Assembly (NCBI GenBank): GCA_022826045.1
Contig: JAJDVQ010000006.1
Location: 1 to 64,000 of the forward strand
Length of the DNA stretch: 64,000 nt
Reading direction: 5' to 3'
DNA from: Acidimicrobiia bacterium
Lineage (GTDB): Bacteria > Actinomycetota > Acidimicrobiia > Acidimicrobiales > Poriferisodalaceae
Made by a program: the position numbers and the translations under genes. This document shows positions 15,368 through 38,224 of this stretch, one piece after another; positions within the stretch are counted from its first letter, which is position 1, and the number at the start of each line of letters is the position of its first letter. The notes below the pieces were generated by a model. It made no database searches. It was not told the DNA's origin and saw nothing but the letters and a program-made list of their open reading frames with translations.

Positions 15368-15377
15368 GCCCCCGCGA

Positions 15378-16683: not shown

Positions 16684-16796
16684 CCGGACACCCCCTGCCG
16701 ATCCCGAGCTGGCCCTGCCGAGCCAGTCCTGCCACGTCTGCCGTCTATTGGCGACATCGCCTGCGCGAGTATGGCCGGGTTCGGGAGGACTGTCCG

Positions 16797-21780: not shown

Positions 21781-21813
21781 GTCACAGCTGCCGTTCTGGT
21801 GTGGAGGCGATTG

Positions 21814-23721
21814 ATGGAGCGGGACACTCAGCCGGTGCGAACCGTCTGGCAGCGGAGTCGGGTGGGTGCGCTGGCGTTGCTGCTGATTGCGGCGGTCCTG
21901 TCGCCGTTGGCGTCGCCCTCGGGTGTCGGCGCGGCCGACGCTGTCGCCCTCGAACGCATCTGGGGTGCGGATCGTTACGAGACGTCGCTGGCCATCGTGC
22001 AGCGCTTCATCGCCGAGGCCGGGGGTCGCATCGAGACTGCCGTTGTCGTGTCCGGCACCGACTGGCGTGACGCGGTCATCGCCGCGGGCTTGGCCGGCTC
22101 GCTGAACGCCCCGGTGCTGCTCAGCCCGCCCGGCGGACTCGCCACGGCAGCGGTGGACATGCTCGGGACGGCAGGTGTCTCGCAGGTCGTGGTGATCGAC
22201 GGCACCGGCACGCTGAGCGACCGAGCGCTCGAGGGACTGCGGCGCCGCTTCGACAGCGTGGAACTGCTGGCAGCAGCGGATCCCTCCGAGCTCTCCGCCA
22301 TGGCTGCGCGCCGGGCCGGCTCAGCGGGACGGCTGAATGGGCTCGGGCGCACGGCGGTTCTCGCGAGCGCGGAAGTGTTCGTCGACGCCATGGTGGCCGG
22401 GCCCATTGCCTGGCGTGGCCAGCACCCCGTTCTCCTCACGCCGCCCGGCACGCTCGACAGCAACGTCGCGGCAGCGGCTGCCGAGCTCGATGTGGAGCAC
22501 GTCTTGGTCATGGGCGGCGTGTCGGCGGTGTCTCAGCAGGTCGTCGACGGGCTGATCGCTGCGAAGATCAGCTTCACGCGCATCGGGGGGGCGACGCGCT
22601 TCGACACAGCCCGGGTGCTGGCAGGCTCCATCGAAGGCGCCTATGCGTCAGGCCCGGGCGGCAGGTGCTTCGATCGCAGGGCGACAGGCGTCGCCACGGC
22701 GCGCTCGCCCTATGACGCGTTGAGCGCAGCGCCGCTGCTCGGTCGGCGGTGCTCGCCGCTGCTGCTGAGCGACGTATCCGCAGCAGACCCGTCCACCGTG
22801 GCTTGGGTGCGCAGCCATACCCGCTCGCTGACCGTGTTCGGCGGAACCGCCGCCGTCTCGAATGCTGCTGCCAGGGTGCTGCGAACCCGAGCACCCGTCT
22901 ATGAAACGGTGGCGACCGGCGCGGAGCACACCTGCGCCATCGCCGTCGGCGGCGCCATCGTGTGCTGGGGCGACGACAGCCACGGCCAGCTCGACGCGCC
23001 CGATGGCGCATTCACAGCGATTGCTGCGGCCGGGCATCATTCGTGCGCGCTCAGAGCGACTGGGCGTGCAGCCTGCTGGGGCGGCGACGCGAGCGGCCAA
23101 CTCGACGTTCCCGGCGACGCGTTCATTGCCATCGCCGCGGGCGGGGTGCCAGGGCCGGGCTCAGCCGCCACGGGCTTCTCATGCGGGCTGAAGCGTGCCG
23201 ACGGATCAGTGAGGTGCTGGGGCGACGACGCCTTCGGACAGGTGTCCCAAGCGCCGCCAGGCAGGTTCTCTGCCGTTGCCGCCGGCTGGGGTCACGCCTG
23301 CGCGTTGCGTGCATCCGACGGGGGAGTGCTGTGCTGGGGCCTTGACGGCCGCGGGCAGGTGTCCCAGGCGCCGTCAGGCAGGCTCGCCTCCATCGCCGCC
23401 GGAGCGTGGCACAGCTGCGCGCTGCGACGTCCGAGCGGTGAAGTGGTGTGCTGGGGCACCAGCGAAGCAGCAGAGGCAGCGCCCTCGGGTCGGTTCGCAG
23501 CCGTCGCGACGGCCGCCGACGTCACATGTGCGTTGGGGCGTGATGACGGCAAGGCGGTCTGCTGGGGTTTCAACGGCCTCGATCAGGTGTCGGGCGCGCC
23601 GTCCGGGGCCTTCCGCTCCATCGTCTCGAGCGCGTGGCATGTGTGTGCCGTGCGCGACACCGACGAGATCGCCTGCTGGGGCGACGACTCCGAGGGCCAA
23701 GCCACGCCGCCGCTCGTCTGA
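21814..23721 (+). CDS. Exported surface protein: cell-wall-binding repeat 2 domain plus RCC1-like beta-propeller
   Basis: Secreted protein of 635 aa. ATG 21814 is set by GGAGG at 21803-21807. A signal peptide (VGALALLLIAAVLSPLASPS, cleaved near GVGAADA) precedes about 300 residues of CWB2 repeats, recognisable by RIWGADRYETSLAIV and RIGGATRFDTARVLAGS, modules that attach proteins to actinobacterial and firmicute walls. The C-terminal about 270 residues hold some seven RCC1-type blades, each with an H-x-CAL..G-x-VxCWG..xxGQ pattern (CWGDDSHGQL, CWGGDASGQL, CWGDDAFGQV, CWGLDGRGQV, CWGFNGLDQV). Conserved paired cysteines suggest disulfides. The propeller is probably a displayed binding surface; its ligand is unknown. 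Confidence 0.8.
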   Translation: MERDTQPVRTVWQRSRVGALALLLIAAVLSPLASPSGVGAADAVALERIWGADRYETSLAIVQRFIAEAGGRIETAVVVSGTDWRDAVIAAGLAGSLNAPVLLSPPGGLATAAVDMLGTAGVSQVVVIDGTGTLSDRALEGLRRRFDSVELLAAADPSELSAMAARRAGSAGRLNGLGRTAVLASAEVFVDAMVAGPIAWRGQHPVLLTPPGTLDSNVAAAAAELDVEHVLVMGGVSAVSQQVVDGLIAAKISFTRIGGATRFDTARVLAGSIEGAYASGPGGRCFDRRATGVATARSPYDALSAAPLLGRRCSPLLLSDVSAADPSTVAWVRSHTRSLTVFGGTAAVSNAAARVLRTRAPVYETVATGAEHTCAIAVGGAIVCWGDDSHGQLDAPDGAFTAIAAAGHHSCALRATGRAACWGGDASGQLDVPGDAFIAIAAGGVPGPGSAATGFSCGLKRADGSVRCWGDDAFGQVSQAPPGRFSAVAAGWGHACALRASDGGVLCWGLDGRGQVSQAPSGRLASIAAGAWHSCALRRPSGEVVCWGTSEAAEAAPSGRFAAVATAADVTCALGRDDGKAVCWGFNGLDQVSGAPSGAFRSIVSSAWHVCAVRDTDEIACWGDDSEGQATPPLV

Positions 23722-24675: not shown

Positions 24676-24996
24676 TTGTCGGAACCTTCTTCCTTGGCTG
24701 TCGGGAAACGCTCGGCAACGTCGGAACCTGAAAATATCAATAGAGCGCACATTGCCAAGGTGTTGATCCGCACTTTGCGTGATCATTGAACAGCAGAATA
24801 TAGATGATTCAATCCGCAGATTGCGGAATCGGATCAGGGCACAGGGTTCGCGCTGCACGGCCGGTCAGGTTTCGGCGATGGGCAGGCCGTGGCGGGCGTG
24901 ACGGACGAAGGCGTCTGCCTAGACGGCGAGGAGGGTGACGTCATCGCCGGAGTAGGTTTCCGGTCTGGCCACCTCTGCATGCAACAGGAGAGCGCA
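24676..24996. promoter_or_regulatory. Divergent intergenic region between secreted-protein gene and mdh
   Basis: This 321-bp region has an AT-rich core (about 24720-24820), presumably the promoter of the minus-strand gene. It includes a short hairpin TCCGCA-GAT-TGCGGA (24813-24827). No convincing -35/-10 pair can be fixed by eye. AGGAG just before 24997 is the mdh ribosome-binding site. Confidence 0.35.
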
Positions 24997-26001
24997 GTGA
25001 ACGATCCAGCCGCGAAGGAACCAGTTCGGGTAGCCGTGACGGGAGCCGCGGGCCAGATCGGCTACAGCCTGCTGTTCCGGATCGCCTCGGGGGCCATGCT
25101 CGGCCCCGAGGTGCCCGTCGAGCTGCGGATGCTGGAGATCCCCCCCGCGATGGGCGCGCTCGACGGCGTGATGATGGAGCTCGACGACTGCGCCTTCCCG
25201 CTGCTGGCGTCACGCACCGGCACGTCAGACCCCAACGAAGCCTTCGAGGGTGCCGACTACGCGCTGCTGGTGGGCTCGATGCCTCGCAAGGCCGGCATGG
25301 AGCGCAGCGACCTGCTCGAGGCCAACGGCGGCATCTTCACGGTGCAGGGCAAGGCGCTGAGCGATTCGGCCAACCCCTCGGTGCGGGTGCTGGTGGTGGG
25401 CAACCCGGCCAACACCAACTGTCTCATCGCCATGCGCAATGCGCCCGCCATCGCCGACGGGCAGTTCACCGCCATGACCCGGCTCGACCACAACCGGGCC
25501 GTCGCCCAGCTCGCCGCCAAGGCCGGCGTGTCGGTGAACGACGTGACCCGCATGACCATCTGGGGGAACCACTCCGCCACCCAGTACCCCGACATCTTCC
25601 GCGCCGTGGTGGGCGGCCACAACGCAGCGGCCCTGGTCGACGAGCAGGCGTGGCTGGAAGACGACTTCATCCCCACCGTGCAGCAGCGCGGCGCCGCGAT
25701 CATCAACGCCCGCGGCGCCTCCTCAGCGGCGTCGGCAGCGTCGGCCGCGGTGGATCACATGCGCGACTGGTCCTCGGACACACCGGGCGGCGACTGGGTA
25801 TCGATGGGCATCCCGTCCACCGGCGACTACGGCGCCCCCGAAGGCATCATCACGTCGTACCCCGTCACCGTCTCGGGCGGCCAGTACCACGTCGTGACCG
25901 GCCTCGACCTCGACGAGTTCAGCCGCTCCCGAATCGAGGCCTCCTGGGCCGAGCTCGTCGACGAGCGCGACACCGTCGGAGGAATGGGCCTCCTCGGCTG
26001 A
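24997..26001 (+). CDS. mdh: Malate dehydrogenase
   Basis: NAD-dependent malate dehydrogenase (334 aa), TCA cycle. It has the Rossmann motif [17 protein letters not shown] (from residue 16), the coenzyme/substrate loop with [27 protein letters not shown], the catalytic region RLDHNRA and the active-site histidine in [11 protein letters not shown]. It belongs to the cytosolic-type (MDH type 2) group usual in actinobacteria. GTG 24997 with AGGAG 6 nt upstream is preferred over ATG 24979. Confidence 0.95.
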
Positions 26002-26013
26002 CCCGACCGCCGT

Positions 26014-26427
26014 TCAGCTCAGCTGGATGTGATGAACGGCAATCCCAAGATTTGGTGCGCGGGTGAGCCTGCCGTCGGCCGTGAGCAGCGGTGCGCCCTT
26101 GGTGACGGCTACGGCGACATACATGGCGTCGTAGGCCGTGACGTTGTCGCGGTAGCGCCATGCCGTCCGTGCCAGGAAGCGATGTGAGATGCGTTCGACG
26201 GGAAACGCGGCGAGGTTGTCGAGCAGCGCCTCGGCGCGCGCTACGGAGATCTCTCCCTGGGCCACGAAGCGGCGCATCGCCGAGACGACTTCGGCATCGA
26301 ACAGCTCGGGCGCAGCCAACGAACATCCCGCGATCGTGTCCGCAAACGCGTTTCCCGCAGGAGTGCGCAGCAGGTACTCAATCGCAGCGGACGAGTCAAC
26401 TACGTAGGCGTCCAAAGAGTTCCTCAT
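26014..26427 (-). CDS. vapC: PIN-domain ribonuclease toxin, VapC type
   Basis: Toxin of 137 aa with the PIN acidic quartet: Asp11 (YVVDSSAAIEYLL), Glu46 (DAEVVSAMRR), Asp100 (AYDAMYVAVA) and Asp118 (LLTADGRL). VapC toxins cleave specific RNAs, often tRNA, when the antitoxin is degraded. Its start overlaps the end of the antitoxin gene by 32 bp, the standard antitoxin-first arrangement. The gene is convergent with mdh. Confidence 0.88.
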   Translation of the reverse strand: MRNSLDAYVVDSSAAIEYLLRTPAGNAFADTIAGCSLAAPELFDAEVVSAMRRFVAQGEISVARAEALLDNLAAFPVERISHRFLARTAWRYRDNVTAYDAMYVAVAVTKGAPLLTADGRLTRAPNLGIAVHHIQLS

Positions 26428-26644
26428 CTCGCTCGCGACGCACTTCGTCGAGGGTGGCCACGACGTCGAGTTCGATATCCAGCGGAGGAATCGACTCCCA
26501 ACGCTCCTTCCATTCGGACCACTCGAGTTCGCGCTTGATGGCCTGCAGCACGACCGCGCTCATCGAACAGTTGCGTTGCTGTGCGCAGCGCTGCAGCCGC
26601 TCATGGAGTTCATCGGGCACGTTCCGCACTTGCAGGTTCGCCAT
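26396..26644 (-). CDS. vapB: Ribbon-helix-helix antitoxin, FitA/VapB type
   Basis: Antitoxin of 82 aa: an N-terminal Arc-like ribbon-helix-helix (MANLQVRNVPDELHERLQRCAQQRNCSMSAVVLQAI) for DNA binding and dimerisation, and a C-terminal acidic/basic tail (LDEVRRERDEELFGRLRS) of the kind that wraps the PIN toxin active site. It overlaps vapC and is expected to autoregulate by binding the repeated GCATGAA sites immediately upstream of its start. Confidence 0.85.
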   Translation of the reverse strand: MANLQVRNVPDELHERLQRCAQQRNCSMSAVVLQAIKRELEWSEWKERWESIPPLDIELDVVATLDEVRRERDEELFGRLRS

Positions 26645-26950: not shown

Positions 26951-28036
26951 GTGAGAGAACTGACCCTCGACGACATCGACGACCTGGCGCTCGGAGCAAC
27001 GCTGCTCGGCACCGGCGGAGGGGGAGACCCCTACGTCGGCAAGCTGCTGGTCTCCCAAGCCATCGCCGACCATGGACCCGCCCGGGTCGTGAGCGCCGAC
27101 GAGCTGCCCGACGACGGCCTGGTGCTGACGACCGCCATCATCGGCGCTCCAACGGTCATCTTGGAGAAGATCCCCGCCGGCACTGAGTTCCGGTCGGGCA
27201 TACAGGCACTGGCGGCCTACCTGGGCGAGGACCCGGTGGCGCTCATGCCGATCGAAGTCGGCGGTGTCAACACCCTGGTGCCGATCGCCACCGCCGTCGA
27301 AATGGGCCTGCCAGTCGTCGACGCTGACGGCATGCGTCGAGCATTCCCCCAGATCGAGATGACCGTCTTCACCCTGCACGACCTGCCCGCCGGCCCGCTG
27401 TCGATCGCGGACGAGAAGGGCAACATGTGCGTGTTCGAGGCGAACACGAACCAGATCGCCGAATCGCTCGCCCGCGCCGCCGTCATCCAGCTCGGCCTCG
27501 CCGACGCAATCAGCTGCTACCCGATGAAGGTGGCTGACGTGCGACGAGCCGGCATCGCAGGCTCCATGAGCTACTGCACCGAGGTCGGCAAGCGGCTCGC
27601 TCACGTGAAGCTGGGTGCCGAAGGAGCGTGGGACGAACTCCTCGACTACACCGATGCGGCCCACGTCTTCAGCGGCAAGGTGATCGATATCGACCGCCGG
27701 ACCACCGAAGGCTTCGCCCGTGGCACGGTGGTGCTCGAGCACCTCGACGACCCCGGCCGAACGATGCGCGTCGAGATACAGAACGAGAACCTTGTCGCGT
27801 TCGAAGACGGCGACGCCGTGGTCACCGTGCCCGACCTGCTCTGCCTGCTCGACTACGAATCGGCCGACCCGATCACCACCGAGGGACTGGCGTACGGGCA
27901 GCGCCTCAATGTGCTTGCCATGCCGTGCGCACCCGAGTGGCACCGCGACGGAATGCTGGATCTCGTGGGGCCCAGGGCCTTCGGATACGACATCGACTAC
28001 GTCGACTTCCGGGAGCGTGCGCGATGCGGAGGCTGA
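26951..28036 (+). CDS. DUF917 / S-methyl-thiohydantoin desulfurase-family protein
   Basis: Protein of 361 aa with the family's N-terminal signature LTLDDIDDLALGATLLGTGGGGDPYVGK and further motifs MPIEVGGVNTLVPIATA and VDADGMRRAFPQIEMTVF. The DUF917 family has been linked to S-methyl-thiohydantoin desulfurase activity and commonly neighbours HyuA-like hydantoinases, as here. GTG 26951 is chosen because GGAAGG ends 6 nt upstream; the ATG at 26945 has no spacing. It is the first gene of a co-directional catabolic set reaching 37265. The reaction in this organism is not proven; opening or desulfuration of a (thio)hydantoin ring is the leading idea. Confidence 0.82.
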   Translation: MRELTLDDIDDLALGATLLGTGGGGDPYVGKLLVSQAIADHGPARVVSADELPDDGLVLTTAIIGAPTVILEKIPAGTEFRSGIQALAAYLGEDPVALMPIEVGGVNTLVPIATAVEMGLPVVDADGMRRAFPQIEMTVFTLHDLPAGPLSIADEKGNMCVFEANTNQIAESLARAAVIQLGLADAISCYPMKVADVRRAGIAGSMSYCTEVGKRLAHVKLGAEGAWDELLDYTDAAHVFSGKVIDIDRRTTEGFARGTVVLEHLDDPGRTMRVEIQNENLVAFEDGDAVVTVPDLLCLLDYESADPITTEGLAYGQRLNVLAMPCAPEWHRDGMLDLVGPRAFGYDIDYVDFRERARCGG

Positions 28037-28101
28037 GCCGAACGGCGAAGCCGGGGCCCGAGCGGCCCGTGAGCGCAGCGAACAAGAGCGGGAGACAATA
28101 G

Positions 28102-29703
28102 GTGACTCAGCGAGAAGATCCTTCGATCCGCGTTTCCTCGAAGGACCTGCGGCTCGGCGTCGACGTCGGCGGTACGAACACGGATGCTGTCGTTGTGGAC
28201 GGCAACGGCCACATCATCGTCGAGACGAAGACCGCGACCACCCCCGAGCCCATCGACGGCATCATCGATGCGATCACCACAGTCATCGACCAGATCGACG
28301 ACACCTCCCGGCTGGGCAAGGCCATGCTGGGCACGACGCACCCGACCAACGCCATCATCCGGCGCCGCGACCTGGACCGAGTGGGTGTGCTCCGGCTGGC
28401 GGCACCCTCATCGCTGGGCGTACGGCCCAGCGCCAACTGGCCAGAAGACTTGCGAGATCTGGTCATCGGGCGCAGCCAGATCATCGAGGGCGGCTTCGAG
28501 TACGACGGCACGCCGATCGCACCCCTCGACGAAGACGCCATCCGCCGGTTCGCTGGCGAGTGCGCGGGCGACGTCTCTGCAGTTGCGGTGTCGTGCGCAT
28601 TCAGCCCGGCATGCACCGACCATGAGCTGCAAGCCGCAGCGATCATCGAAGCCGAATGCGGAGGCGATCTGCCGGTCTCGCTGAGCCACACGGTCGGGTC
28701 GTTGGGCCTGCTCGAGCGTGAGAACGCCACCATCCTCAATGCATCGCTGCTGACGGTCGCGAGGCGGGTGGTGAACGGCTTCCGCGACACGCTTGCCGAC
28801 CTCGGACTCGACGTCGAGAGCTTCCTGACCCAGAACGACGGGACGCTGATGACGGTGGAGGAGGCAGACCGCTACCCAGTGCTCACCGTCGGCTCAGGCC
28901 CGACGAACTCGATGCGCGGCGCGTGCGCGCTGGCGGGATTGACCGATGCGCTCGTGATCGATGTCGGCGGCACCTCGGCAGACATCGGCATCTTGGTGAA
29001 CGGCTTTCCCCGTGAGTCCACTGCCGCTGTGGAAGTCGGCGGAGTGCGCACCAACTTCCGCATGCCCGATCTGATCTCGGTGGGCCTGGGCGGCGGCACC
29101 ATCGTGCGGCACGATGGCGAGGCCGACGGCGATGTGTCCGTAGGCCCGGACTCGGTGGGCTACCGGGTCATCAGCGCTGCAATGTGCATGGGTGGCCCCA
29201 CGCTGACGCTCTCCGACGTGTCGTTGGCGATGGGCCGGCTAGACGGGTTTGGCGATCCGTCGCTGCTGAACGCGGTGGAGGATGACGTCTGCAGGGCCGC
29301 GATCGCCTGGGTCGACGAGCGGATCGGTGTGCTGGGCGAGCGGATGAAGGCATCCAGCACACCGCTGCCGCTGATGGCCGTAGGCGGCGGCGCTCACCTC
29401 GTACCGGCGGAGTTGGCGGGCTTCAGCGAGGTCATCTGGCCGCCGCATCACTCGGTGGCGAACGCGTTCGGCGCGGCCATCGCCGAAGCCGCCGGATCGA
29501 TCGACAAGGTGTACAGCTACGACGCCACCAGCCGCGAGGACTGCCTGCGCAGTGCCCGGGAGGAAGCAACAGACGCCGCCATCCGTGCTGGCGCCAACGC
29601 AGGCGAGGTGCGGATCACGAGCGTCGTGGAGATCCCGATGACGTACGTGCCGGGCGGCGGGTGCCGGGTCATCGTCAAGGCGGTCGGGCCGCTCGCCGCG
29701 TGA
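28102..29703 (+). CDS. hyuA: Hydantoinase/oxoprolinase family protein, HyuA-like
   Basis: Protein of 533 aa with the N-terminal actin-like nucleotide-binding signature LRLGVDVGGTNTDAVVVDG, a second DVGGTSADIGILVNG near residue 290, and GSGPTNSMRGACALAG. HyuA-type enzymes hydrolyse five-membered cyclic amides (hydantoins, oxoproline, N-methylhydantoin), often with ATP and with a HyuB partner. No HyuB is present; the shorter length and DUF917 neighbour match the HyuA/DUF917 pairing seen in other genomes. It has a GTG start with GGGAG upstream; its stop overlaps the dipeptidase start (GTGA). Confidence 0.85.
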   Translation: MTQREDPSIRVSSKDLRLGVDVGGTNTDAVVVDGNGHIIVETKTATTPEPIDGIIDAITTVIDQIDDTSRLGKAMLGTTHPTNAIIRRRDLDRVGVLRLAAPSSLGVRPSANWPEDLRDLVIGRSQIIEGGFEYDGTPIAPLDEDAIRRFAGECAGDVSAVAVSCAFSPACTDHELQAAAIIEAECGGDLPVSLSHTVGSLGLLERENATILNASLLTVARRVVNGFRDTLADLGLDVESFLTQNDGTLMTVEEADRYPVLTVGSGPTNSMRGACALAGLTDALVIDVGGTSADIGILVNGFPRESTAAVEVGGVRTNFRMPDLISVGLGGGTIVRHDGEADGDVSVGPDSVGYRVISAAMCMGGPTLTLSDVSLAMGRLDGFGDPSLLNAVEDDVCRAAIAWVDERIGVLGERMKASSTPLPLMAVGGGAHLVPAELAGFSEVIWPPHHSVANAFGAAIAEAAGSIDKVYSYDATSREDCLRSAREEATDAAIRAGANAGEVRITSVVEIPMTYVPGGGCRVIVKAVGPLAA

Positions 29704-30758
29704 GCCACGCCGGGGTCCGCGTCGCCGACGCTCACAACGACCTGCTGCTCGCAGTCCTGCATCAACGAGAACGCGGCCGCTCCGACCCCTTCGGGGACTA
29801 CTGGCTGCCGCAGCTGCGCTCCGGCGGTGTGGACCTGCAGTTCCTGCCGATCTTCACCGAGGACCAGCACGTCGGCGAGGGCGCCTTGCGGCGCGCCTTG
29901 CTGCTGCTCGAAGAAGCTCGACGCATTGCCGACCTTCATGCGGCCGATGTCGCCATCGTCGAGACCCCGTCCGATCTCGAACAGGCGCTGGAATCCAATC
30001 GGATCGGGCTGCTGCTTGCCCTGGAGGGCTCCGAGCCGCTCGGCGCTGATCTCGAGCTGCTCGAGACGTTCTTCCGGCTCGGCGTGCGCAGCATGTCGAT
30101 GACGTGGAATCGCCGCACGATGATGGCTGACGGCGTCGGCGAAGCCGCCACCGGCGCTGGGCTGACCAGCCTCGGCGTCGATGCTGTGGCCGAAATGGAA
30201 CGGCTCGGGATCATCGTCGACGTGAGCCATCTTTCGGCAGCCGGTGTGGCCCACGTGTCCGGCATTGCCACCCGACCCTTCGTGGCGACCCATTCGTCGT
30301 GCCAAGCGCTGTGCGGCCACCCGCGCAACCTCAGCGATGAGCAAATGCGCCAAATTGCGGCGGCCGGCGGCGTCATCGGCATCAATGCGTTCGGCGGCTT
30401 CCTCGCTGATGAACAGCCTGTGCTGGCTGACTACGTCGCGCACATTTCTCATGCACTTGACGTTGCCGGCGACGGGGCTGTCGGACTGGGGCCGGATTTC
30501 ATCGACGATCTCCTGCACACCATCGACCCGATCCTGGGCGCAGGCCTCGTCGATCCTGACCGCCTGCCGCTGGTGGACGAGTTGCGCTCGCCGGCCGATC
30601 TGGCGCCGCTCGTCGAGCTGCTGGTGGCGAAACTCGGCCCCGAGATCGCGTGCCGTGTCGCGGGCGACAACTGGATCGACTTCGTCCTGGCCAATCTGCC
30701 GTCCCGCCGACCGCACGAGGTCGCGGAGAATAGAGCCGCCGGGACCGCCGACGCCTAG
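29700..30758 (+). CDS. Membrane dipeptidase-like amidohydrolase (peptidase M19)
   Basis: Metal-dependent hydrolase (352 aa) of the renal dipeptidase family. The metal ligands are recognisable: H-x-D in VADAHNDLLLAV, the bridging Glu in LLLALEGSEPLG, and His in VDVSHLS and VATHSSCQALCGHPRNLSDEQM, plus the late Asp in GLGPDFIDD. Family members cleave dipeptides with a C-terminal D- or dehydro-residue and N-acyl or beta-lactam amides. GTG 29700 is set by a 4-nt overlap with hyuA, implying coupled translation; in this operon it may cleave a carbamoyl- or peptidyl-amino acid released by ring opening. Confidence 0.88.
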   Translation: MSHAGVRVADAHNDLLLAVLHQRERGRSDPFGDYWLPQLRSGGVDLQFLPIFTEDQHVGEGALRRALLLLEEARRIADLHAADVAIVETPSDLEQALESNRIGLLLALEGSEPLGADLELLETFFRLGVRSMSMTWNRRTMMADGVGEAATGAGLTSLGVDAVAEMERLGIIVDVSHLSAAGVAHVSGIATRPFVATHSSCQALCGHPRNLSDEQMRQIAAAGGVIGINAFGGFLADEQPVLADYVAHISHALDVAGDGAVGLGPDFIDDLLHTIDPILGAGLVDPDRLPLVDELRSPADLAPLVELLVAKLGPEIACRVAGDNWIDFVLANLPSRRPHEVAENRAAGTADA

Positions 30759-30766
30759 GAGCCAGC

Positions 30767-32353
30767 GTGTTGCAATCCAGCGAGCAAGCTCGACCGCTGA
30801 CCCTGCGGCAACTGCTGGCGGCAGGCGTGCTCGGCGGGTCGCACGTGGTGGCCGGTGCCAAGGGGCTCGACAGTGCGGTTGTCGATATCGTCGTAACTGA
30901 GCGCTGCGACCGGACGACACCGATCTCCAGCGGACTCCTCGTGGTGTTGGACGCCAGCTCACTGGCGCCGAACTCCTATGCGTTGGACATCGCGCTGCGC
31001 GCAGTACGCGACGGTGATGGCGCCGGACTGGTGGCGGTCAACGCCGTGGCAGCACCTGGGCTCGCTACCCGGCGATTGGCAGACCGGTTCTCCACGGCGC
31101 TCGTCGAGGTCAGCACGCCCGATGTGCTGTCGATGGCCGCTGCGGCGCGCGAACTGCTGTTGCAGCCCACGGTCCGCCAAGCCGCGATGGTGTCCAAGCT
31201 GCTGAGCGGTCTGATGGCCACCAAGACCGTGCCGGACACGCTGGAACTGGTGGCCGACGTGCTGGGACGACCGTGCTCGCTGGTCGAAGCCACCGGCGCG
31301 ATCGTCGCCGGTCCTGATGTTGCAGTCGAGGCTGGCGCGCTGCGTCAGAGTGCTTTCAGCTCTCCCCGTGTGGGTGGCGAAGGCGCGGCGGGCATGACCT
31401 GTCCGGTGATCGTGGTGCCGGGCGAGCCGGCCCGCTTCTGGCTGGTGTGCGTGCTCGACGCGGCCGACGAGGCACTCATGGGCACCGGCCTCGAGCTCAT
31501 GGGGGTGGCGTCGTGGGCAGTGGGTGCCTACCTGGTTCGGGACCGGCTGGTGATGGAACGCGACGCCCGCCACCGGCTGGCGCTGCTCAACGAGATTGTG
31601 GGCGGCGGCGAACTGCCCGACGAGACCGTGCTGGCGCAGATGGCCACCGCTGGTTGGTCGGCCGCGGGATGGGTGACTGCCTTCCACGTCGAGGTGTCCG
31701 GCGCGGTCGATGCTGCCTGGGTGCTGGTGAACACCGACACACTGGGCGAGCTGCTGAGCGCCTGCGGCATCGACGGCCCGCTGATCGAACGAACCGACGG
31801 CTGGTCGGGCTGGGTGAGCTCCCGCTCGGAGCCACCCGTGGAGGAATACCGGGCGATGACGCGTCGGCTGCGGGACGCGGTCACCCAGCTCACCGACGAG
31901 GCAGCCGATGTCATGGCACACGGCGGGGTCGGGCGGCCGGCGACGGGACTGCCGGGCCTGCGTGCCAGCTTGACCGATGCGCGCCAGGCCGCAACCTTGG
32001 CTGGTGCCGGCGGCCGGCGGGTCGCAGTGCGCCACATCGACGAGCTCGGCATCCAGCGGATCATGCTGGGCTGGTACGGCTCCGCCGATTTCGGCCGGGT
32101 GGTCGATGCATTCCTGGCACCGCTGGAGGCGACCGATGCCGATGAGACTCTGCTGCGGACGCTGGAGGCGTACTTGGACTGCCAGTCCTCAGCCACGAAC
32201 ACCGCGGCCATGCTCGGCGTGCACCGCAACACGGTGATGAAGCGGATCGATCGCATCTCCGAGGCGCTCCACGTCAATCTGGCGGATCCCGATCAGCGAT
32301 TGGCCCTGCAGCTCGTGATGCGCAAGCACCGGTTGGACCGGACCCAGCAGTGA
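30767..32353 (+). CDS. PucR-family transcriptional regulator
   Basis: Regulator of 528 aa with an N-terminal PucR (purine-catabolism-regulator-like) sensor domain (LTLRQLLAAGVLGGSHVVAGAKGLDSAVVDIVV) and a C-terminal HTH_30 domain (LEAYLDCQSSATNTAAMLGVHRNTVMKRIDRI, about residues 463-494). Members respond to nitrogen-ring catabolites such as allantoin, hydantoin or amino-acid intermediates. It lies 8 bp after the dipeptidase gene and inside the operon it probably controls, giving autogenous regulation. It starts at GTG 30767 and its stop overlaps the next (degenerate) gene. Confidence 0.88.
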   Translation: MLQSSEQARPLTLRQLLAAGVLGGSHVVAGAKGLDSAVVDIVVTERCDRTTPISSGLLVVLDASSLAPNSYALDIALRAVRDGDGAGLVAVNAVAAPGLATRRLADRFSTALVEVSTPDVLSMAAAARELLLQPTVRQAAMVSKLLSGLMATKTVPDTLELVADVLGRPCSLVEATGAIVAGPDVAVEAGALRQSAFSSPRVGGEGAAGMTCPVIVVPGEPARFWLVCVLDAADEALMGTGLELMGVASWAVGAYLVRDRLVMERDARHRLALLNEIVGGGELPDETVLAQMATAGWSAAGWVTAFHVEVSGAVDAAWVLVNTDTLGELLSACGIDGPLIERTDGWSGWVSSRSEPPVEEYRAMTRRLRDAVTQLTDEAADVMAHGGVGRPATGLPGLRASLTDARQAATLAGAGGRRVAVRHIDELGIQRIMLGWYGSADFGRVVDAFLAPLEATDADETLLRTLEAYLDCQSSATNTAAMLGVHRNTVMKRIDRISEALHVNLADPDQRLALQLVMRKHRLDRTQQ

Positions 32354-32660
32354 CAGGCCTCCAAGACGGGGCCGATGTCGCGGTCATCGGCGGAGGCATA
32401 GCGGGCATCTCGGCTGCCTTCGAGCTCGCGGGGACCGGGCACGAGGTGGCGCTGGTGGAGCGCGAACCGACGCTGACCGCGCACAGCACCGGTCGTTCCG
32501 CTGCCCAGTTCCTGGCCTCCTACGGCGAAGCGACCAATCGACGGCTGAGCGCGGCCTCTCGGCTGACCTCATCGGGGGCGAGATTCCTGCTGGCGACTTG
32601 GGGGTGCTCGAGTCGCAACTCAGTCCAAAGCGCTTTGCTGCCGTCGAGATGCCTGTCTGA
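32350..32660 (+). pseudogene. FAD-dependent amine/D-amino-acid oxidase with large internal deletion
   Basis: From GTG 32350 (GTGA overlap with the PucR stop) a DAO-family N-terminus is clear: VAVIGGGIAGISAAFELAGTG, then VALVEREPTLTAHSTGRSAA (to about residue 70). The frame then loses homology, while a different frame ending at the TGA 32658-32660 reads LIGGEIPAGDLGVLESQLSP followed by KRF, which matches the typical C-terminus of the same family (x-GExLPxDLxxLxxxxLSPxRF). The middle about 270 residues are missing, so a deletion joined both ends out of frame near 32555. Intact homologues are about 370-390 aa. The gene cannot make a working oxidase. Confidence 0.75.
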
Positions 32661-32796
32661 CGTGAAGCCCCGCCTCGGGCATGCGTGATCTGCACCACAA
32701 GGGCCTCCAATCGCAGCGATCTGCCCATTGAGGGGCGAAGTCCTCCTCCTTACGGTCGCTTCCACAGGCCGGAACGAGGCCCTGAGGGGGGATCCG
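32661..32796 (+). promoter_or_regulatory. Spacer before the ABC transporter genes
   Basis: These 136 bp separate the oxidase remnant from the binding-protein gene. GAGGGGGG (about 32784-32791) is its ribosome-binding site. No promoter consensus stands out; transcription may read through from upstream or begin here. Confidence 0.3.
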
Positions 32797-33960
32797 ATGA
32801 AGGCACGCACCTTGACGAGACTGCTCGGCGCGGCGCTCGCGCTGATGCTCGTTGCCGCCGCATGCGGCGACGGCGACGATGGCAGCGACGCAACCACCGA
32901 CGTCACCGCAGCGCCCACGCAGACCGCCGCGGAACCCGCGGCGAGCGACGACGAGCCCGACGCCACCAGCGACACCGCCGCGCCTGAAGCAGACGACAGT
33001 GCCCCGGCAACGACCGCGGCGCCCGCCGAACCGGCCGACGAACCCGATCCCGAGCCGTGGCGCATCGCCTACCTCTCGGCCAGCTCGGCCAACACGTTCC
33101 TGCTGGCATCAGTCGGCGAGATGCAGCGGCTCGCGGACGAGAACAACATCGAGTTGGTCGAGTTCGACGCACAATTCAACGCCGAGCTGCAGACCACCCA
33201 ACTGCAGGACGCCATCGCCAGCGGTCAGTACGACGGCATCATCCTGGTCGCGGTCAACGGACCCGGGCTCGTTCCCGACGTCGAGGCGGCGCTGGCAAGC
33301 GGCCTGCAAGTCGTGCTGTTCAACCAGATCGTCGGCGACGATCTCTCGACGAACGAGCCGCAAGTCGACGGCATCGCAGCCTCGGTGATGGCGCCTCCGG
33401 TTGTGACCGGCGAGCGCGCGGGCCGCCTCACGATCCAGGCATGCGAGGGACTCGACCCGTGCCGTGTCGTGTACCTGTTCGGCATCCGGGGGATCCCGCT
33501 GGATGTGGCGCTGCGGCAGGGCTTCGACAGCGTCGTTGCCGGGCACGCCAACATCGAAGTCGTCGCTGAAGGCGAAGGCTTGTACCTGGGGCCCGAGGGC
33601 GGCATCAACGCCATCCAGGACATCCTTCAGGCGCAGCCAGAGTTCGACGTGGTGGTCGGCGCCGACCAGTCGCTGCAGGGCGTTGAGCTGGTGCTGACCG
33701 ACGAGGGCAAGCTCGACGGTGTCGCCCTGATCGGCTTGGGCGGCTCCTCACCTGCGATCGACGGCGTGCGTGACGGCCGCTGGTCCGCCACCGTGTACTA
33801 CGCACCGGCGAGCGAGGGCCGCCTGGCGATGGAGGCGATGATCGCTGCCCTGCGCGATGGCACCATCACCGGCGGCATCGACCCCAATGCGAACTTCCTC
33901 GATGAGGGTTTGGTGACCTCCGCCAACGTGGACCAATTCACTGCGGAGTGGGATGGGTGA
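32797..33960 (+). CDS. Sugar-type ABC transporter substrate-binding lipoprotein
   Basis: Periplasmic-binding-protein-type lipoprotein (387 aa). The signal ends in the lipobox VAAAC (Cys23), followed by an unusually long Asp/Ala/Thr-rich linker (about 24-85) before the type I binding fold (WRIAYLSASSANTFLLASVGEMQRLADENN...). The fold is that of RbsB/LsrB-like proteins (Peripla_BP_4) that bind sugars, but members also carry purines, autoinducer-2 and other small polar ligands, so the gene set points to a nitrogen-ring ligand instead. Its stop overlaps the ATPase start (GTGA). Confidence 0.88.
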   Translation: MKARTLTRLLGAALALMLVAAACGDGDDGSDATTDVTAAPTQTAAEPAASDDEPDATSDTAAPEADDSAPATTAAPAEPADEPDPEPWRIAYLSASSANTFLLASVGEMQRLADENNIELVEFDAQFNAELQTTQLQDAIASGQYDGIILVAVNGPGLVPDVEAALASGLQVVLFNQIVGDDLSTNEPQVDGIAASVMAPPVVTGERAGRLTIQACEGLDPCRVVYLFGIRGIPLDVALRQGFDSVVAGHANIEVVAEGEGLYLGPEGGINAIQDILQAQPEFDVVVGADQSLQGVELVLTDEGKLDGVALIGLGGSSPAIDGVRDGRWSATVYYAPASEGRLAMEAMIAALRDGTITGGIDPNANFLDEGLVTSANVDQFTAEWDG

Positions 33961-35516
33961 TCGCTGAGCCGGCTCGGGGCCCAGTCCAAGCACCGGTCCA
34001 CGTTGAGCTGACGGGCGTCTCCAAGCGATTCGGATCGACGCAAGCGGTGGACGGCGTGAACCTCGCCGTTCACCGCGGCGCGATCCACGCCCTCGTCGGC
34101 GAGAACGGTGCCGGCAAGTCCACGGTCGGCAAAGTCGTCTCGGGGCTGTATGGCCCCGACAGTGGTTCGGTGGCTGTGAACGGTCGGCCGGTCCGGTTTC
34201 GGTCTCCGCGGCACGCCTTTGACGCCGGGGTCACGGCCATTGCCCAGGAACTGGCGCTGGTTCCCGACCGCACCGTGGTGGACAACGTGTTCCTCGGCGT
34301 GGAGGCAACTCGGTGGGGATGGGTGCGACCCCAGGAATCGCGCAGGCGGTTCCTGGCGCTGGCTGAGCGCACGGGCATCCACGTCGACCCCGCCGCGAGG
34401 GTGGGCGACCTCAGCGTCGCCGACCAGCAGTGCGTCGAGATTCTGCGAGCAGTTGCGCGCCGCACCGAGTTGGTGGTGATGGACGAGCCCTCGGCCCGGC
34501 TCTCGATTGCGGAGCGCGATCAGCTTCACCGCTTGGTCCGTTCTCTGCGCGACCAGGGCATCACCGTTCTGTTCATCTCGCACTTCCTGGATGAGGTGCT
34601 GGCGTTGGCCGATGAGGTGACGATCATGCGCGACGGGCGGGTCGTGCGTACCACGACCCCGTCGTCGGAGACGGCTGATTCGCTGGTCGAGGCCATGATC
34701 GGTCGGGAGCTCGACGCCACGTTCCCGCCAAAGGCAGCGCTACCCGACTCCGCTGCGACGCCCGCGCTGCGGGTGCGGGGCTTGCGGTGCACAGGATCGT
34801 TGCGCGAGGGCTCGCCGGCAGGCCTGGATCTCGACGTGGCTGCCGGTGAGATCGTCGGCATCGCCGGATTGGTCGGCTCAGGTCGCACCGAGTTCTTGCG
34901 AGCGATCTATGGGGCGGATCCTGGCGATGGCGGCGAAGTCGTGGTTGGCACACAGTGCCTGCGGGGTTCGCGTCCAGACCGGGCTATCCGAGCGGGTGTG
35001 GGCCTGATTCCTGAGTCGCGCAAGGACCACGGGCTGCTGATGGAGCGCAGCGTCCGCGAGAACGTCAGCCTGCCTCATCTGGAACGGATGACCCGAGCAG
35101 GCGTCGTCAACCGCATCGCCGAGCGCCGCTTCGTCCGGGCCGCAAGCACCGATGCCGGGGTGCGCGACGGCGGCATGGAAACCCCCATGCGGCTGCTGTC
35201 AGGCGGCAACCAGCAGAAGTGCCTCTTCGCACGCTGGCTGGTGTCGGGGCTGCGGGTGCTGATTGCCGACGAGCCGACCCGAGGCGTCGATGTGGGCTCC
35301 AAGCGCGCCATCTACGACCTCATCGCATCCGCCGCCGCAGACGGTCTCGCCGTGCTGGTCGTGTCGTCCGAGCTGGAGGAACTGGTGGGCCTGTGCCATC
35401 GCATCCTGGTGATGCGCGACGGCAGTTTCGTCGGCGAGTTCACCCACCCTGACCTTGACGAGGCCGAGTTGCTGCGCCATGCCTTCGGCGAAGCCTCCCT
35501 GAGCGCAGTGACGTGA
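33957..35516 (+). CDS. Sugar-type ABC transporter ATP-binding protein (tandem ATPase, RbsA/MglA-like)
   Basis: Double-cassette ATPase of 519 aa. Cassette 1 has Walker A GENGAGKST, a weak signature LSVADQQCVEI and Walker B VVMDEPSARLS; cassette 2 has a degenerate P-loop GLVGSGRTEF, signature LLSGGNQQKCLFARWL and VLIADEPTRGVDVGSK. The asymmetry (one canonical site per composite pair) is normal for this family. GTG 33957 overlaps the preceding stop by 4 nt and is preferred over the GTG at 33948. It couples to the single permease gene that follows. Confidence 0.92.
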   Translation: MIAEPARGPVQAPVHVELTGVSKRFGSTQAVDGVNLAVHRGAIHALVGENGAGKSTVGKVVSGLYGPDSGSVAVNGRPVRFRSPRHAFDAGVTAIAQELALVPDRTVVDNVFLGVEATRWGWVRPQESRRRFLALAERTGIHVDPAARVGDLSVADQQCVEILRAVARRTELVVMDEPSARLSIAERDQLHRLVRSLRDQGITVLFISHFLDEVLALADEVTIMRDGRVVRTTTPSSETADSLVEAMIGRELDATFPPKAALPDSAATPALRVRGLRCTGSLREGSPAGLDLDVAAGEIVGIAGLVGSGRTEFLRAIYGADPGDGGEVVVGTQCLRGSRPDRAIRAGVGLIPESRKDHGLLMERSVRENVSLPHLERMTRAGVVNRIAERRFVRAASTDAGVRDGGMETPMRLLSGGNQQKCLFARWLVSGLRVLIADEPTRGVDVGSKRAIYDLIASAAADGLAVLVVSSELEELVGLCHRILVMRDGSFVGEFTHPDLDEAELLRHAFGEASLSAVT

Positions 35517-36511
35517 GCGCCGGGGGGCCAGCCGTGGCCGATGCCGCAGTATCCGTTCCGTCGACATCGGGTGCCAGGCACCAGCTCAACGTGCTGGCGC
35601 GTTTCGGCATCGTCTGGGTCACCCTTGCGCTCTTCGTCGTGCTGGCCATCACGACAGACGGCTTCCTGACTGCTCCGAATCTGCGCAATGTGCTGGATCA
35701 GCAGGCGACCCTGCTGATCGCTGCCTCGGTCGCAACGCTCGCCATGATCGCCGGCGGCTTCGACGTGTCGATCGCCGCAGTGGCGGTCGTGGCGCCGCTG
35801 GTTGCGCTGCGGGTCGAGAACGCCACCGGTTCGGTGGTGGTCGCGCTGATTGCCGGGTGCGCCTTCGGTCTGGCGGTGGGGCTCGCCAACGGGTCGATCG
35901 TGGCGTTCGCACGCATCAACTCATTCATCACGACGCTGGCCATGTCGTTCATCGTGTTCGGACTCGGCTACATCGTGAGCGAGCGCAGCATCCTGCGACC
36001 GGTCAGCGAGAACTTCCGTGACATTGCACGGACGCGCGTGCTGAGCCTGACCACGGCGACCTGGATCTCGCTCGCCGTGGTGGCAGTGGCGTGGATCGCG
36101 CTCGCAGGCACCCGCTTCGGCCGTCACGTGTACGCAACAGGCGGCAACGCGGAAGCGGCGCGGCTGGCAGGCGTGCGCACTCGGTACATCGTCGTGTCGG
36201 TCTTCGCCCTGTCGGGGCTCGCAGCCGGCCTGGCCGGTGTCGTGGCGGCGTCCCGGACCATCAGTGCCACGCCATCGGATGACTTCAGTTTCGTATTCGG
36301 CGTCATCGCCGCCATCGTCGTCGGCGGCACATCGATCGCCGGCGGCACCGGTGCCGTGTGGAGGACGCTGCTCGGCGCCTTCTTCATCGCTTTCATGGTC
36401 AACGGCTTCAACCTGCACCAGGTCGACCCGATCTGGCAGCGAGTCATTCAAGGCGTTGTGATTCTTGTTGCGGTCGCCGCTGACGCCTGGTCCCGTTCCC
36501 GCCGAGCCTGA
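35513..36511 (+). CDS. Sugar-type ABC transporter permease (RbsC-like)
   Basis: Membrane permease (332 aa) with about 8-10 hydrophobic helices; the family signature (GGFDVSIAAVAVVAPLVALRV) and the motif GRHVYATGGNAEAARLAGVRTRYIVVSVFALSGLAAGLAG are characteristic of the BPD_transp_2 family. GTG 35513 overlaps the ATPase stop (GTGA). With the binding protein and ATPase it completes a one-permease importer, probably working as a homodimer. Confidence 0.92.
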   Translation: MSAGGPAVADAAVSVPSTSGARHQLNVLARFGIVWVTLALFVVLAITTDGFLTAPNLRNVLDQQATLLIAASVATLAMIAGGFDVSIAAVAVVAPLVALRVENATGSVVVALIAGCAFGLAVGLANGSIVAFARINSFITTLAMSFIVFGLGYIVSERSILRPVSENFRDIARTRVLSLTTATWISLAVVAVAWIALAGTRFGRHVYATGGNAEAARLAGVRTRYIVVSVFALSGLAAGLAGVVAASRTISATPSDDFSFVFGVIAAIVVGGTSIAGGTGAVWRTLLGAFFIAFMVNGFNLHQVDPIWQRVIQGVVILVAVAADAWSRSRRA

Positions 36512-36545
36512 CTACCAACCCTTCTCCCACACGAAAGGACCCACC

Positions 36546-37265
36546 ATGAAGATCCACATCGTCGTTCCGATCACCTCGGACACGTTCAACGAACAGATCA
36601 CCCTTGAAGCTCGTAGCTTTCTGGGGCCGGAGATCGACATCGAGGTCTCGAACCTGCGCTACGGGCCGGCCTCCATCGAGTCGTTCTACGACGAGGTGCT
36701 GGCGGGCCCAGCAATTGTCGAGGAGGTGCGCCGCGCAGTCGACGCCGGGGCGGACAGCGTGTTCATCACCTGCTTCGGCGACCCGGCTGTGCCTGCGGCC
36801 CGCGAGCTGGTGGACATCCCCGTCGTCGGCGGTTTCGAACCGGCCATAGCGACAGCGCTCACTTTGGGTGCTCGCTTTTCGGTCATCACCGTGCTGGAGA
36901 ACGTTGTGCCGATGATCTCGGATCTCGCGACACGCATGGGCATCCGGGAGCGCATGGTCTCGGTCGAAGTGGTGGACACGCCGGTCCTCGAATTGCACGA
37001 CGGCGACGCCCTCCTCAAGAGCCTCTCCCAGGCCTCACACCGGGCGCTGGACCAAGCTGCCGACGTGCTGGTGCTGGGCTGCACCGGCATGCTCGGCGTG
37101 GCAGCGGCACTGCAGTCCCAGCTCGCAGCGGAGCGCGTGAGGGTTCCCGTGGTCGACCCGACCGGTGCTTCGCTCGGACTCCTGCTCACACTGCACTCGA
37201 TGGGCTTGAAGCCGAGCCGGTGCACCTACATGCCGCCCCCCGACAAGGAGCGCATCAGCGCCTGA
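36546..37265 (+). CDS. Asp/Glu/hydantoin racemase family protein
   Basis: Racemase-fold protein (239 aa) with the two catalytic cysteines expected of the family: Cys in FITCFGDPAVPAARE and Cys in VLVLGCTGMLG. Relatives include hydantoin racemase (HyuE), aspartate/glutamate racemases and maleate isomerase. ATG 36546 is set by AAAGGA 6 nt upstream. Placed at the end of an operon with HyuA, DUF917 and an importer, hydantoin racemase is the most likely activity: it would interconvert D- and L-5-substituted hydantoins so both enantiomers can be used. Confidence 0.85.
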   Translation: MKIHIVVPITSDTFNEQITLEARSFLGPEIDIEVSNLRYGPASIESFYDEVLAGPAIVEEVRRAVDAGADSVFITCFGDPAVPAARELVDIPVVGGFEPAIATALTLGARFSVITVLENVVPMISDLATRMGIRERMVSVEVVDTPVLELHDGDALLKSLSQASHRALDQAADVLVLGCTGMLGVAAALQSQLAAERVRVPVVDPTGASLGLLLTLHSMGLKPSRCTYMPPPDKERISA

Positions 37266-37280: not shown

Positions 37281-37826
37281 TCACGCCTGGGCGCTGTGGC
37301 CAGCCTGTGACTCCTCGATCACTGCTTCGAGCCAGTCGAGCTGGCGACGTCCCAAGTCCTCGTCGGGGAACACCTTGCGCACGAGTGCTGCGATGTCGGC
37401 GATATCGGCGATGCCAGTGATCTCCATGAGTCGCATCGCATCACTGATGTCGGTGCGACGAGCCGCTCGCGCCTTCATCGCCAGCATGTGCTCTGGGCTC
37501 GCGGCGATGACCGTCAAGTACGGATGCTCGAATACCTCGCGCCCGTGCCGCTGCTCGGCCTTGGGCATGTACGGCGTTGCTTGTTCGTTCAGCCAAGTTG
37601 ACGGCCAGCCTCGCTCGCGCGCCATCTCAGCGGCGATGGACATGACCGCCTCGTAGCCGTCGAGGATGGCTGTGTCGATGTCGCGGGTGGCTCGATCGGC
37701 GTCGTACGCCAGCACCATCGCGGCACCGCCGGCGATGTAGAGGCGTGCATGCGTTCGCCGACGCTCAAGTCGCTCGGCGAGCTCGCTGAGGGCGGCGCGG
37801 ATCTCAGATTCAGCGAGCGGGGTCAC
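37281..37826 (-). CDS. DUF6036-like nucleotidyltransferase
   Basis: Protein of 181 aa with a minimal nucleotidyltransferase motif LYIAGGAAMVLAYDADRATRDIDTAIL (GG, then D-x-D in RDIDTA). Later features are YLTVIAASPEHMLAMKARAARRTDISDAMRLM, typical of DUF6036/AbiEii-like toxins that transfer nucleotides to RNA or protein. GTG 37826 begins 2 nt after the stop of the partner gene, so the two are translated as a unit. A toxin-antitoxin role is suggested by this pairing and small size but is not proven. Confidence 0.65.
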   Translation of the reverse strand: MTPLAESEIRAALSELAERLERRRTHARLYIAGGAAMVLAYDADRATRDIDTAILDGYEAVMSIAAEMARERGWPSTWLNEQATPYMPKAEQRHGREVFEHPYLTVIAASPEHMLAMKARAARRTDISDAMRLMEITGIADIADIAALVRKVFPDEDLGRRQLDWLEAVIEESQAGHSAQA

Positions 37827-37828
37827 CG

Positions 37829-38224
37829 TCAGACGACCGCTAGCTCGCTGCGAGGAAACCACACGCCGTGTTCCTCGAAGGCACCGGGCGTGGTGATGAT
37901 GGTGCGCACTCGATCGAAGGGGTAACAGCCGCCGGCGTACCAGAAGTCGGGGAGAAACCTGTGCCTGGACGATGTCCATGGTGGGGGTGCCATGGCTGCG
38001 GAGCGTGCGAGGTGTTCGGCGTAGGCGGCCAGGAAGGCGTCCCAGCGGGAGTCGAACAGCTCTGGTTCTTCAGCAATCAAGGCAGCTCGCTCGTGAGGGC
38101 CGGCTTCCTGCCATACGAGTCCGAAGTCGTGCAGCAAGAGACGCAGCCGAAACTCGTCGTCGCTGGCGCGCAGAGCTGGCACGTAGTCGGCCAGTGCGTT
38201 CGGGGGCCGGGTGGATGAAGTCAT
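37829..38224 (-). CDS. Hypothetical partner of the nucleotidyltransferase (131 aa)
   Basis: Small protein: a helical N-terminal half (DEFRLRLLLHDFGLVWQEAGPHERAALIAEEPELFDSRWDAFLAAYAEHLA) and a C-terminal beta-rich half (RFLPDFWYAGGCYPFDRVRTIITTPGAFEEHGVWFPRSEL). The ending recalls the small proteins encoded upstream of DUF6036 nucleotidyltransferases, which are candidate antitoxins. Start ATG 38224. Only 2 nt separate its stop from the downstream start. Confidence 0.55.
   Translation of the reverse strand: MTSSTRPPNALADYVPALRASDDEFRLRLLLHDFGLVWQEAGPHERAALIAEEPELFDSRWDAFLAAYAEHLARSAAMAPPPWTSSRHRFLPDFWYAGGCYPFDRVRTIITTPGAFEEHGVWFPRSELAVV

Follow-up and report, generated by a model that had tools for sequence, protein, structure and literature searches.

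The 64,000-nucleotide stretch of contig JAJDVQ010000006.1 analyzed here (Acidimicrobiia bacterium, family Poriferisodalaceae, assembly GCA_022826045.1), referred to as the window (GC content of 67.6%), contains a run of nine features encoding a DUF917 protein, a short HyuA, an M19 metallodipeptidase, a PucR/CdaR-type regulator, the remnant of a flavin adenine dinucleotide (FAD)-dependent dehydrogenase, the three subunits of a CUT2-type importer, and an Asp/Glu-family racemase (Table 1). All nine lie on the plus strand in reading frames that are open without internal stops, all are matched by one or more Pfam families above the cut-off, and together they form a real, operon-like arrangement. 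No match to HyuB (PF02538) was found with Pfam among the nine operon proteins, so that the gene set and the presence of HyuA without HyuB stand as described in a first-pass annotation made from the sequence alone. The same annotation characterized the junctions as mostly 4-nucleotide overlaps; such overlaps are real, but they occur at four of the eight junctions (HyuA/M19, PucR/FAD, binding protein/ATPase, and ATPase/permease), which makes "mostly" generous. The PucR domain of the regulator scores 22 bits, below its 33.5-bit cut-off.

Table 1. Coordinates and supporting matches of the nine operon features in the window
Feature	Position	Strand	Matches and remarks
DUF917 protein (S-Me-THD_N + S-Me-THD_C), 361 aa	26951-28036	+	PF06032, 180.5 bits; PF20906, 200.4 bits; proposed hydrolytic partner of HyuA
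Short HyuA, 533 aa, predicted ATP-binding subunit activating a cyclic amide	28102-29703	+	PF05378, PF01968
M19 metallodipeptidase	29700-30758	+	PF01244, 262.5 bits (cut-off, 26)
PucR/CdaR-type regulator	30767-32353	+	HTH_30, 72.6 bits; GGDEF_2, 42.5 bits; both over cut-off
Remnant of DauA-like FAD D-amino acid dehydrogenase, 112 residues	32350-32688	+	DAO, 56 bits
Lipoprotein-type binding protein of CUT2/RbsBAC-type importer	32797-33960	+	PF13407, 112.2 bits
Importer double ATPase (RbsA/AraG-like)	33957-35516 (alternative start, 33948)	+	PF00005, two stretches
Importer permease (RbsC/AraH-like)	35513-36511	+	PF02653, 128 bits
Asp/Glu-family racemase	36546 (ATG) to 37265	+	PF01177, 146 bits

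Conservation of these genes was followed in two collections. A DUF917 search of 298 genomes of the same order (the order set) matched 33 genomes at E values up to 1e-20, and 36 loci from this set had their neighborhoods compared. In named genomes, a seven-sequence DUF917 alignment used as the query gave 57 loci, of which the 54 with at least 50% DUF917 identity are treated as the subfamily. The 57 loci come from many Acidimicrobiia metagenome-assembled genomes as well as from Prauserella flavalba, P. endophytica, Thermocrispum municipale, Leucobacter sp. G161, and Chloroflexi metagenome-assembled genomes. Beyond the order, a draw of 396 genomes from the phylum gave a single match at E values up to 1e-120, namely, the window's own genome. 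Neighboring genes were called at 40% identity (30% for PucR) and 55 bits, and "testable" refers to loci whose stretch reaches far enough for the gene in question.

HyuA follows DUF917 in all 53 testable subfamily loci of the named-genome scan, and M19 follows the pair in 45 of 47 (18 of 19 in the order set); the two negative loci are L107, in which the M19 gene lies 6.7 kb further on, and L120. In contrast, M19 follows DUF917 in none of 16 testable loci from other DUF917 subfamilies (0/3 among named genomes with less than 50% identity and 0/13 in the order set). PucR is present in 36 of 45 testable subfamily loci, the binding protein in 38 of 44, the ATPase in 37 of 41, and the permease in 33 of 39, in several gene orders that include a binding protein upstream of DUF917 in L084, L107, L110, and L117. 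Counted without a test of reach, matches were found to the racemase in 33 of the 54 loci, to the FAD enzyme in 19, to a Delta1-pyrroline-2-carboxylate (P2C) reductase in 11, and to PutA in 9, two of them stubs. The complete version, in genomes G281 and G262, consists of eleven genes on one strand in a single run: PutA, DUF917, HyuA, M19, PucR, binding protein, ATPase, permease, racemase, FAD enzyme, and P2C reductase. Conservation of the gene set in several families of the order indicates that the cluster is no chance association; it most likely encodes one pathway, as had been proposed at first, with the importer as a member of the HyuA set rather than a chance neighbor.

The window DUF917 protein shares its family with the S-methyl thiohydantoin and thiohydantoin desulfurases, aligning with their models over residues 2 to 324 of 361, but it scores 111.4 bits against the 450-bit cut-off of NF058532 and 96.2 bits against the 440-bit cut-off of NF058529. 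An identity as a thiohydantoin desulfurase was rejected on these scores, which are about a quarter of the curated cut-offs. The subfamily also differs from those enzymes in having HyuA as the next gene. The closest solved relative of HyuA is the N-methylhydantoinase 7hk5 (E value of 1.9e-26), and a caprolactamase model was matched weakly. The ATP-dependent hydantoinases, 5-oxoprolinases, and caprolactamases of the HyuAB type share the ATP-binding core with the operon HyuA; the latter, however, is short, covering the Hydantoinase_A profile at positions 1 to 176 of 291 only, and has DUF917 in the place of HyuB. Among sequences of at least 55% identity, the motif DVGGTNTD is retained in 54 of 54, and GSGPTNS and DVGGTSAD are retained with few changes where covered; these motifs are presumed to bind nucleotide. 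Stand-alone DUF917 enzymes displace a thiol from a comparable carbon of S-methyl thiohydantoin. In kin of HyuA, one subunit is expected to phosphorylate the lactam, with the other having a role in its hydrolysis (PMC6061476, excerpt). With no HyuB here and DUF917 as the invariable companion of HyuA, DUF917 would take the hydrolytic part. The two proteins together are most likely an opener of cyclic amides, with the dipeptidase acting afterwards, which agrees with the initial proposal. Departures from the usual pair were also observed: in Thermocrispum municipale (L106:14230-18164), an extra HyuA-HyuB pair comes after DUF917-HyuA-M19 and a major facilitator superfamily transporter lies upstream, and at L114:6557-9956 HyuA is preceded by three tandem DUF917 genes.

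The closest solved relative of the M19 protein is dipeptidase 3id7 (E value of 8.6e-30). His12, Asp14, Glu109, His198, His207, Arg209, and Asp266, which are taken to be the metal ligands and the carboxylate-binding Arg, are invariant among 42 sequences wherever covered, each residue being reached by 40 or 41 of them (sequences below 50% identity were dropped). M19-type enzymes favor L-X-D-Y dipeptides. The window protein is thus most likely a dipeptidase with its catalytic residue set intact, predicted to act after ring opening.

The closest solved relative of the racemase is the allantoin racemase KpAllR (3qvj; E value of 9.1e-33), and 36 sequences were aligned with that protein after omission of those shorter than 150 residues or containing stops (including L091 and one piece of L093). 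Allantoin and hydantoin racemases are reported to have Asn/Asp12 in 100% of cases together with Met17, Thr/Ser118, and Thr119, whereas a NozR-like set has Ile/Val, Phe/Leu, Thr/Ser, and Val/Ile at the same four positions and an OpaE-like set has Val/Ile/Leu, Tyr/Phe/Trp, Val/Ile/Leu, and Gly/Pro (PMC12661438, excerpt). The window racemase reads I/F/T/V, as do all 14 window-type racemases of the subfamily (window included); it carries, by its residues, the NozR-like set and not the allantoin/hydantoin set. Racemases of other subfamilies read I/L/T/V (L115) and I/V/T/V (L121), and a second racemase family of the relatives reads V/Y/V/G or V/F/V/G (Tyr in 18 and Phe in 2 of 20), an OpaE-like set. 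The two catalytic Cys residues are present in 36 of 36 racemases, the window's among them, and Asn or Asp at position 12 is present in 0 of 36. NozR is a D/L diketopiperazine isomerase demonstrated by experiment to act on cyclo-Trp-Trp, with activity lost on Cys changes (PMC10156859, excerpt), and OpaE is described as converting D to L centers in peptide-derived oxepinamides (PMC12661438 and PMC7530659, excerpts). NozR and the window racemase thus have the family, the two Cys residues, and the four-residue pocket set in common but differ in context, NozR being part of the biosynthesis of nocardioazine (PMC10156859, excerpt) and the window racemase lying beside hydrolases and an importer.

All three importer subunits resemble RbsBAC/CUT2 sugar importers by family, with scores of 463.7 of 689 bits for the ATPase against the AraG model and 206.1 of 378 bits for the permease against AraH. 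The binding protein, in contrast, has lost most ribose contacts. Its match to 2ioy is distant (E value of 1.1e-13), and 39 sequences (the window and 38 loci) were aligned with that structure after removal of sequences of 300 residues or less or with stops; the ribose contacts and their positions are assumed to follow Escherichia coli RbsB numbering. The window protein keeps the equivalents of Asn13 and Phe15 and reads V, N, Q, V, D, G, and Y at Asn64, Asp89, Arg90, Arg141, Asn190, Asp215, and Gln235. The replacements are shared: Asn at 89 and Gln at 90 occur in 39 of 39 sequences, two columns that depend on the aligner, since another places a gap there, and Asp occurs at 190 in 39 of 39 and Gly at 215 in all 38 sequences covered. 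No sequence has Arg at 141 or Gln at 235, and Asn13 is kept in 38 of 39. These changes fit the first-pass proposal of a sugar-type importer with a different ligand; to judge from the residues, they say "not ribose" and do not say "cyclic dipeptide."

The FAD gene of the window is internally deleted, as first noted. Window positions 32201 to 32563 and 32539 to 32999 align with 15254 to 15616 and 16427 to 16887 of locus L068; because the flanks align with both ends of the intact L068 gene, about 835 bases are gone. A short similar sequence lies at both edges of the deletion, and the gene is also missing from the close relatives L070 and L081, with different boundaries. Counterparts beyond such a remnant, a few of them cut by the end of the stretch, are found at 19 of 54 related loci and resemble DauA of Pseudomonas aeruginosa (E value of 3.8e-74), an enzyme that accepts D-proline. 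Among these 19 sequences (those of 230 residues or less were dropped), the amino acid-binding residues are shared with DauA: Tyr53, Arg222, and Tyr249 are kept in 19 of 19, Arg305 is kept in 18 of 18 covered, and Gln336 is kept in 15 of 15 covered. The side-chain anchor Glu87, in contrast, is replaced in 19 of 19 (Val in 17 and Leu in 2). In DauA, Glu87 and Glu246 bind the guanidinium group of D-arginine (PMC11193025, excerpt).

Two further enzymes of the relatives fit with D-proline oxidation. An OCD-family gene (L093:14650-15582) scores 380.8 bits against NF004793, the Delta1-pyrroline-2-carboxylate reductase model, above its cut-off of 322 bits. Proteins over this cut-off occur in 33 of the 298 order genomes, with a strong bias toward those carrying the operon (16 of 21, against 17 of 277 others; Fisher P = 1.4e-13; 5 of 8 operon genera against 10 of 163 others, P = 1.3e-4), in counts that include the window's own genome among the 21 and are uncorrected for kinship between genomes. 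The reductase is present in 16 of the 20 related genomes and not in the window's, and in 8 of the 16 operon genomes carrying it, it lies within 12 kb of DUF917. Full-length PutA is encoded in the cluster at 7 of 54 loci, with L091 and L093 retaining C-terminal stubs only. Pro_dh and Aldedh domains were found in all three PutA proteins scanned, and the PutA in the cluster is the only Pro_dh match in five of five such order-set genomes (G184, G159, G281, G262, and G244).

Variation among the operons follows the two racemase types. In a DUF917 tree of 47 rows, window-type-racemase loci and second-racemase loci are split by well-supported branches (99/99 each), with 9 and 15 rows labeled by racemase type, 23 unlabeled, and a deep part left unsure by long branches. 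The single-contig genome G244 carries both versions (L078 and L104), the second with the same eleven kinds of gene in another order and with the second racemase. The same malate dehydrogenase gene (window positions 24889 to 26001; also L068, L071, L090, L097, and L099) is adjoined by the window-type operon in some genomes and by the PutA-FAD-second-racemase version in others, which suggests that one version has taken the place of the other at this site. Parts of both versions lie in tandem on one contig at L098. At a contig end in genome G268 (contig C5; L066/L116), identity to the window is 62% for DUF917, 78% for HyuA, and 96 to 98% from M19 to the racemase, the FAD gene aside; this hybrid operon may have arisen through recombination or misassembly.

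Taken as a whole, the operon can plausibly be read as a system for the uptake of 2,5-diketopiperazines, most likely proline-containing ones, as an amino acid source, a proposal whose probability is considered evenly balanced. It builds on observed gene content, conservation, and residues, from which each reaction, the ligand, and the order of steps are inferred. The CUT2-type importer would bring the cyclic dipeptide into the cell, where the NozR-like racemase would interconvert its L and D centers by proton transfer between the two Cys residues. HyuA would use ATP to phosphorylate the oxygen of a ring amide, giving an imidate phosphate, and DUF917 would hydrolyze the activated carbon, the two acting as an ATP-dependent cyclodipeptidase. 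M19 would then cut the linear dipeptide bearing a D-residue. In the relatives, the DauA-like dehydrogenase would oxidize the freed D-proline to Delta1-pyrroline-2-carboxylate, the P2C reductase would return L-proline, and PutA, where present, would lead on to glutamate. Somewhat more tentatively, DUF917 and the short HyuA are proposed to be such a cyclodipeptidase and to make up, with the importer, epimerase, M19, D-proline dehydrogenase, P2C reductase, and PutA, a complete catabolic pathway for proline cyclic dipeptides.

Several observations weigh against this proposal. Glu246, the second side-chain anchor of DauA, is retained by 17 of the 19 FAD enzymes, which counts against a fully apolar pocket, and the NozR-like set, a published consensus whose frequencies are modest (44% and 32% for two of the positions; PMC12661438, excerpt), is no proof of substrate. 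With cut contigs counted, 33 of the 54 subfamily loci gave a racemase match and 26 gave one for the FAD enzyme or the P2C reductase, and the Prauserella and Thermocrispum loci consist of DUF917-HyuA-M19, with no CUT2 importer or racemase match in the fetched stretch. Each racemase type has its own DUF917 clade and many of the loci are closely related, which means that they do not count as independent cases. Pro_dh shows no overall enrichment, being found in 11 of 21 genomes with the operon and in 131 of 277 without it, and the burning of proline is therefore not general; for this reason, and with two of nine PutA matches being stubs, PutA was rejected as a general operon feature. The window genome, which is 90.8% complete so that absence is no proof, has neither Pro_dh nor an intact P2C reductase (a fragment of about 36 residues lies on contig C102), and no close FAD enzyme was found in it except the remnant, two further matches being 26 to 27% identical. 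This strain seems to have lost the proline leg or never to have had part of it, and its version of the operon may supply L-amino acids, with the D-residue left for other enzymes to handle. No support comes from cyclodipeptide oxidase (PF19585), which might have served as an independent marker of such rings: its single occurrence among the 298 order genomes is in one that does not carry the operon.

The ligand originally proposed was a 5-substituted hydantoin or thiohydantoin, taken up by the importer, equilibrated by the racemase, and opened by DUF917/HyuA, with the dipeptidase freeing the amino acid. The DUF917 family does include thiohydantoin desulfurases, whose models are matched weakly, the closest solved relatives of HyuA and the racemase are an N-methylhydantoinase and an allantoin racemase, and a D-amino acid dehydrogenase would suit a D-carbamoyl product too. 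However, the DUF917 scores reach about a quarter of the model cut-offs, no carbamoylase is found among the nine operon proteins, M19 belongs to a dipeptidase family and has its catalytic set intact, and Asn/Asp12 is missing in 36 of 36 racemases. The accessory genes of the relatives point instead to a dipeptide and D-proline; the first-pass annotation could not see these genes, as the window contains no more than one of them, in remnant form. A cyclic dipeptide chain employs each gene of the complete version, whereas a hydantoin chain leaves the P2C reductase and PutA unused. The (thio)hydantoin ligand is accordingly unsupported and quite unlikely, and a cyclic dipeptide, probably with proline, is the better reading. 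The same accessory genes would also fit a D-amino acid lactam, such as ornithine lactam, or another cyclic amide giving D-ornithine or D-proline directly, since alpha-oxidized D-ornithine likewise cyclizes to Delta1-pyrroline-2-carboxylate and so reaches L-proline and PutA. HyuA kin include caprolactamase (a weak match; PMC6061476, excerpt), and the retained Glu246 is in keeping with such a substrate. A lactam nevertheless leaves no role for M19, conserved in 45 of 47 testable loci, and Val or Leu in place of Glu87 in every FAD enzyme disfavors basic D-amino acids, making this explanation unlikely.

Cyclic dipeptides might also be handled for a purpose other than nutrition, in defense against or detoxification of bioactive diketopiperazines or in the remodeling of a home-made one. 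Cyclodipeptide oxidase clusters are enriched in PF01177 racemases and DUF917, many also have peptidase genes, and they have been interpreted as serving purine metabolism or biosynthesis (PMC11055893, excerpt); the apparent absence of the proline leg from the window genome would also agree. The importer and, in some relatives, the genes leading from D-proline through L-proline to glutamate look nutritional, however, and with cyclodipeptide oxidase in so few genomes of the order such a role appears distinctly improbable. Least probable is an importer that carries an ordinary sugar and merely adjoins an amide-degrading set. The models best matched by its ATPase and permease are those of sugar transporters, and no such importer is found in the Prauserella and Thermocrispum stretches, but 38 of 44 testable subfamily loci have the binding protein nearby, in more than one gene order, and its ribose-contact positions are replaced in a conserved manner.

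Other genes were observed around the operon and its counterparts. Between malate dehydrogenase and DUF917, on the minus strand (26014 to 26644), are two short open reading frames judged by eye to resemble a VapC-VapB toxin-antitoxin pair; directly past the operon, also on the minus strand (37281 to 37979), is a nucleotidyltransferase of the AbiEii/DUF6036 type; and positions 21799 to 23721 encode a 640-residue protein with RCC1 repeats and cell wall binding domain 2. In the window's genus, loci with another DUF917 subfamily (L036, L037, L038, L041, and L046) have DUF917, a luciferase-like monooxygenase, and HyuA with molybdenum hydroxylase genes nearby, all labeled by eye, and are perhaps a different cyclic-amide pathway. 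Molybdenum hydroxylase-like genes (a label likewise given by eye) also lie upstream of subfamily operons of one genus in the order set; they were rejected as part of the operon, with no match passing the 40% filter in subfamily loci.

Diketopiperazines form a natural compound class that is abundant and withstands ordinary peptidases. Among the open-license PMC matches listed, judged by titles and the starts of abstracts and with subscription literature outside the search, none assigns diketopiperazine hydrolysis to a HyuA/DUF917 pair. A 2013 study that combined 15 peptidases with eleven diketopiperazines detected no cleavage and called the responsible enzymes unclear (PMC3852281, excerpt). A catabolic reading is now suggested for the DUF917, racemase, and peptidase genes near cyclodipeptide oxidases (PMC11055893, excerpt). 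If the reading proposed here is true, the operon would give named candidate genes for the ring opening, uptake, and epimerization of diketopiperazines and a role for DUF917-HyuA pairs.

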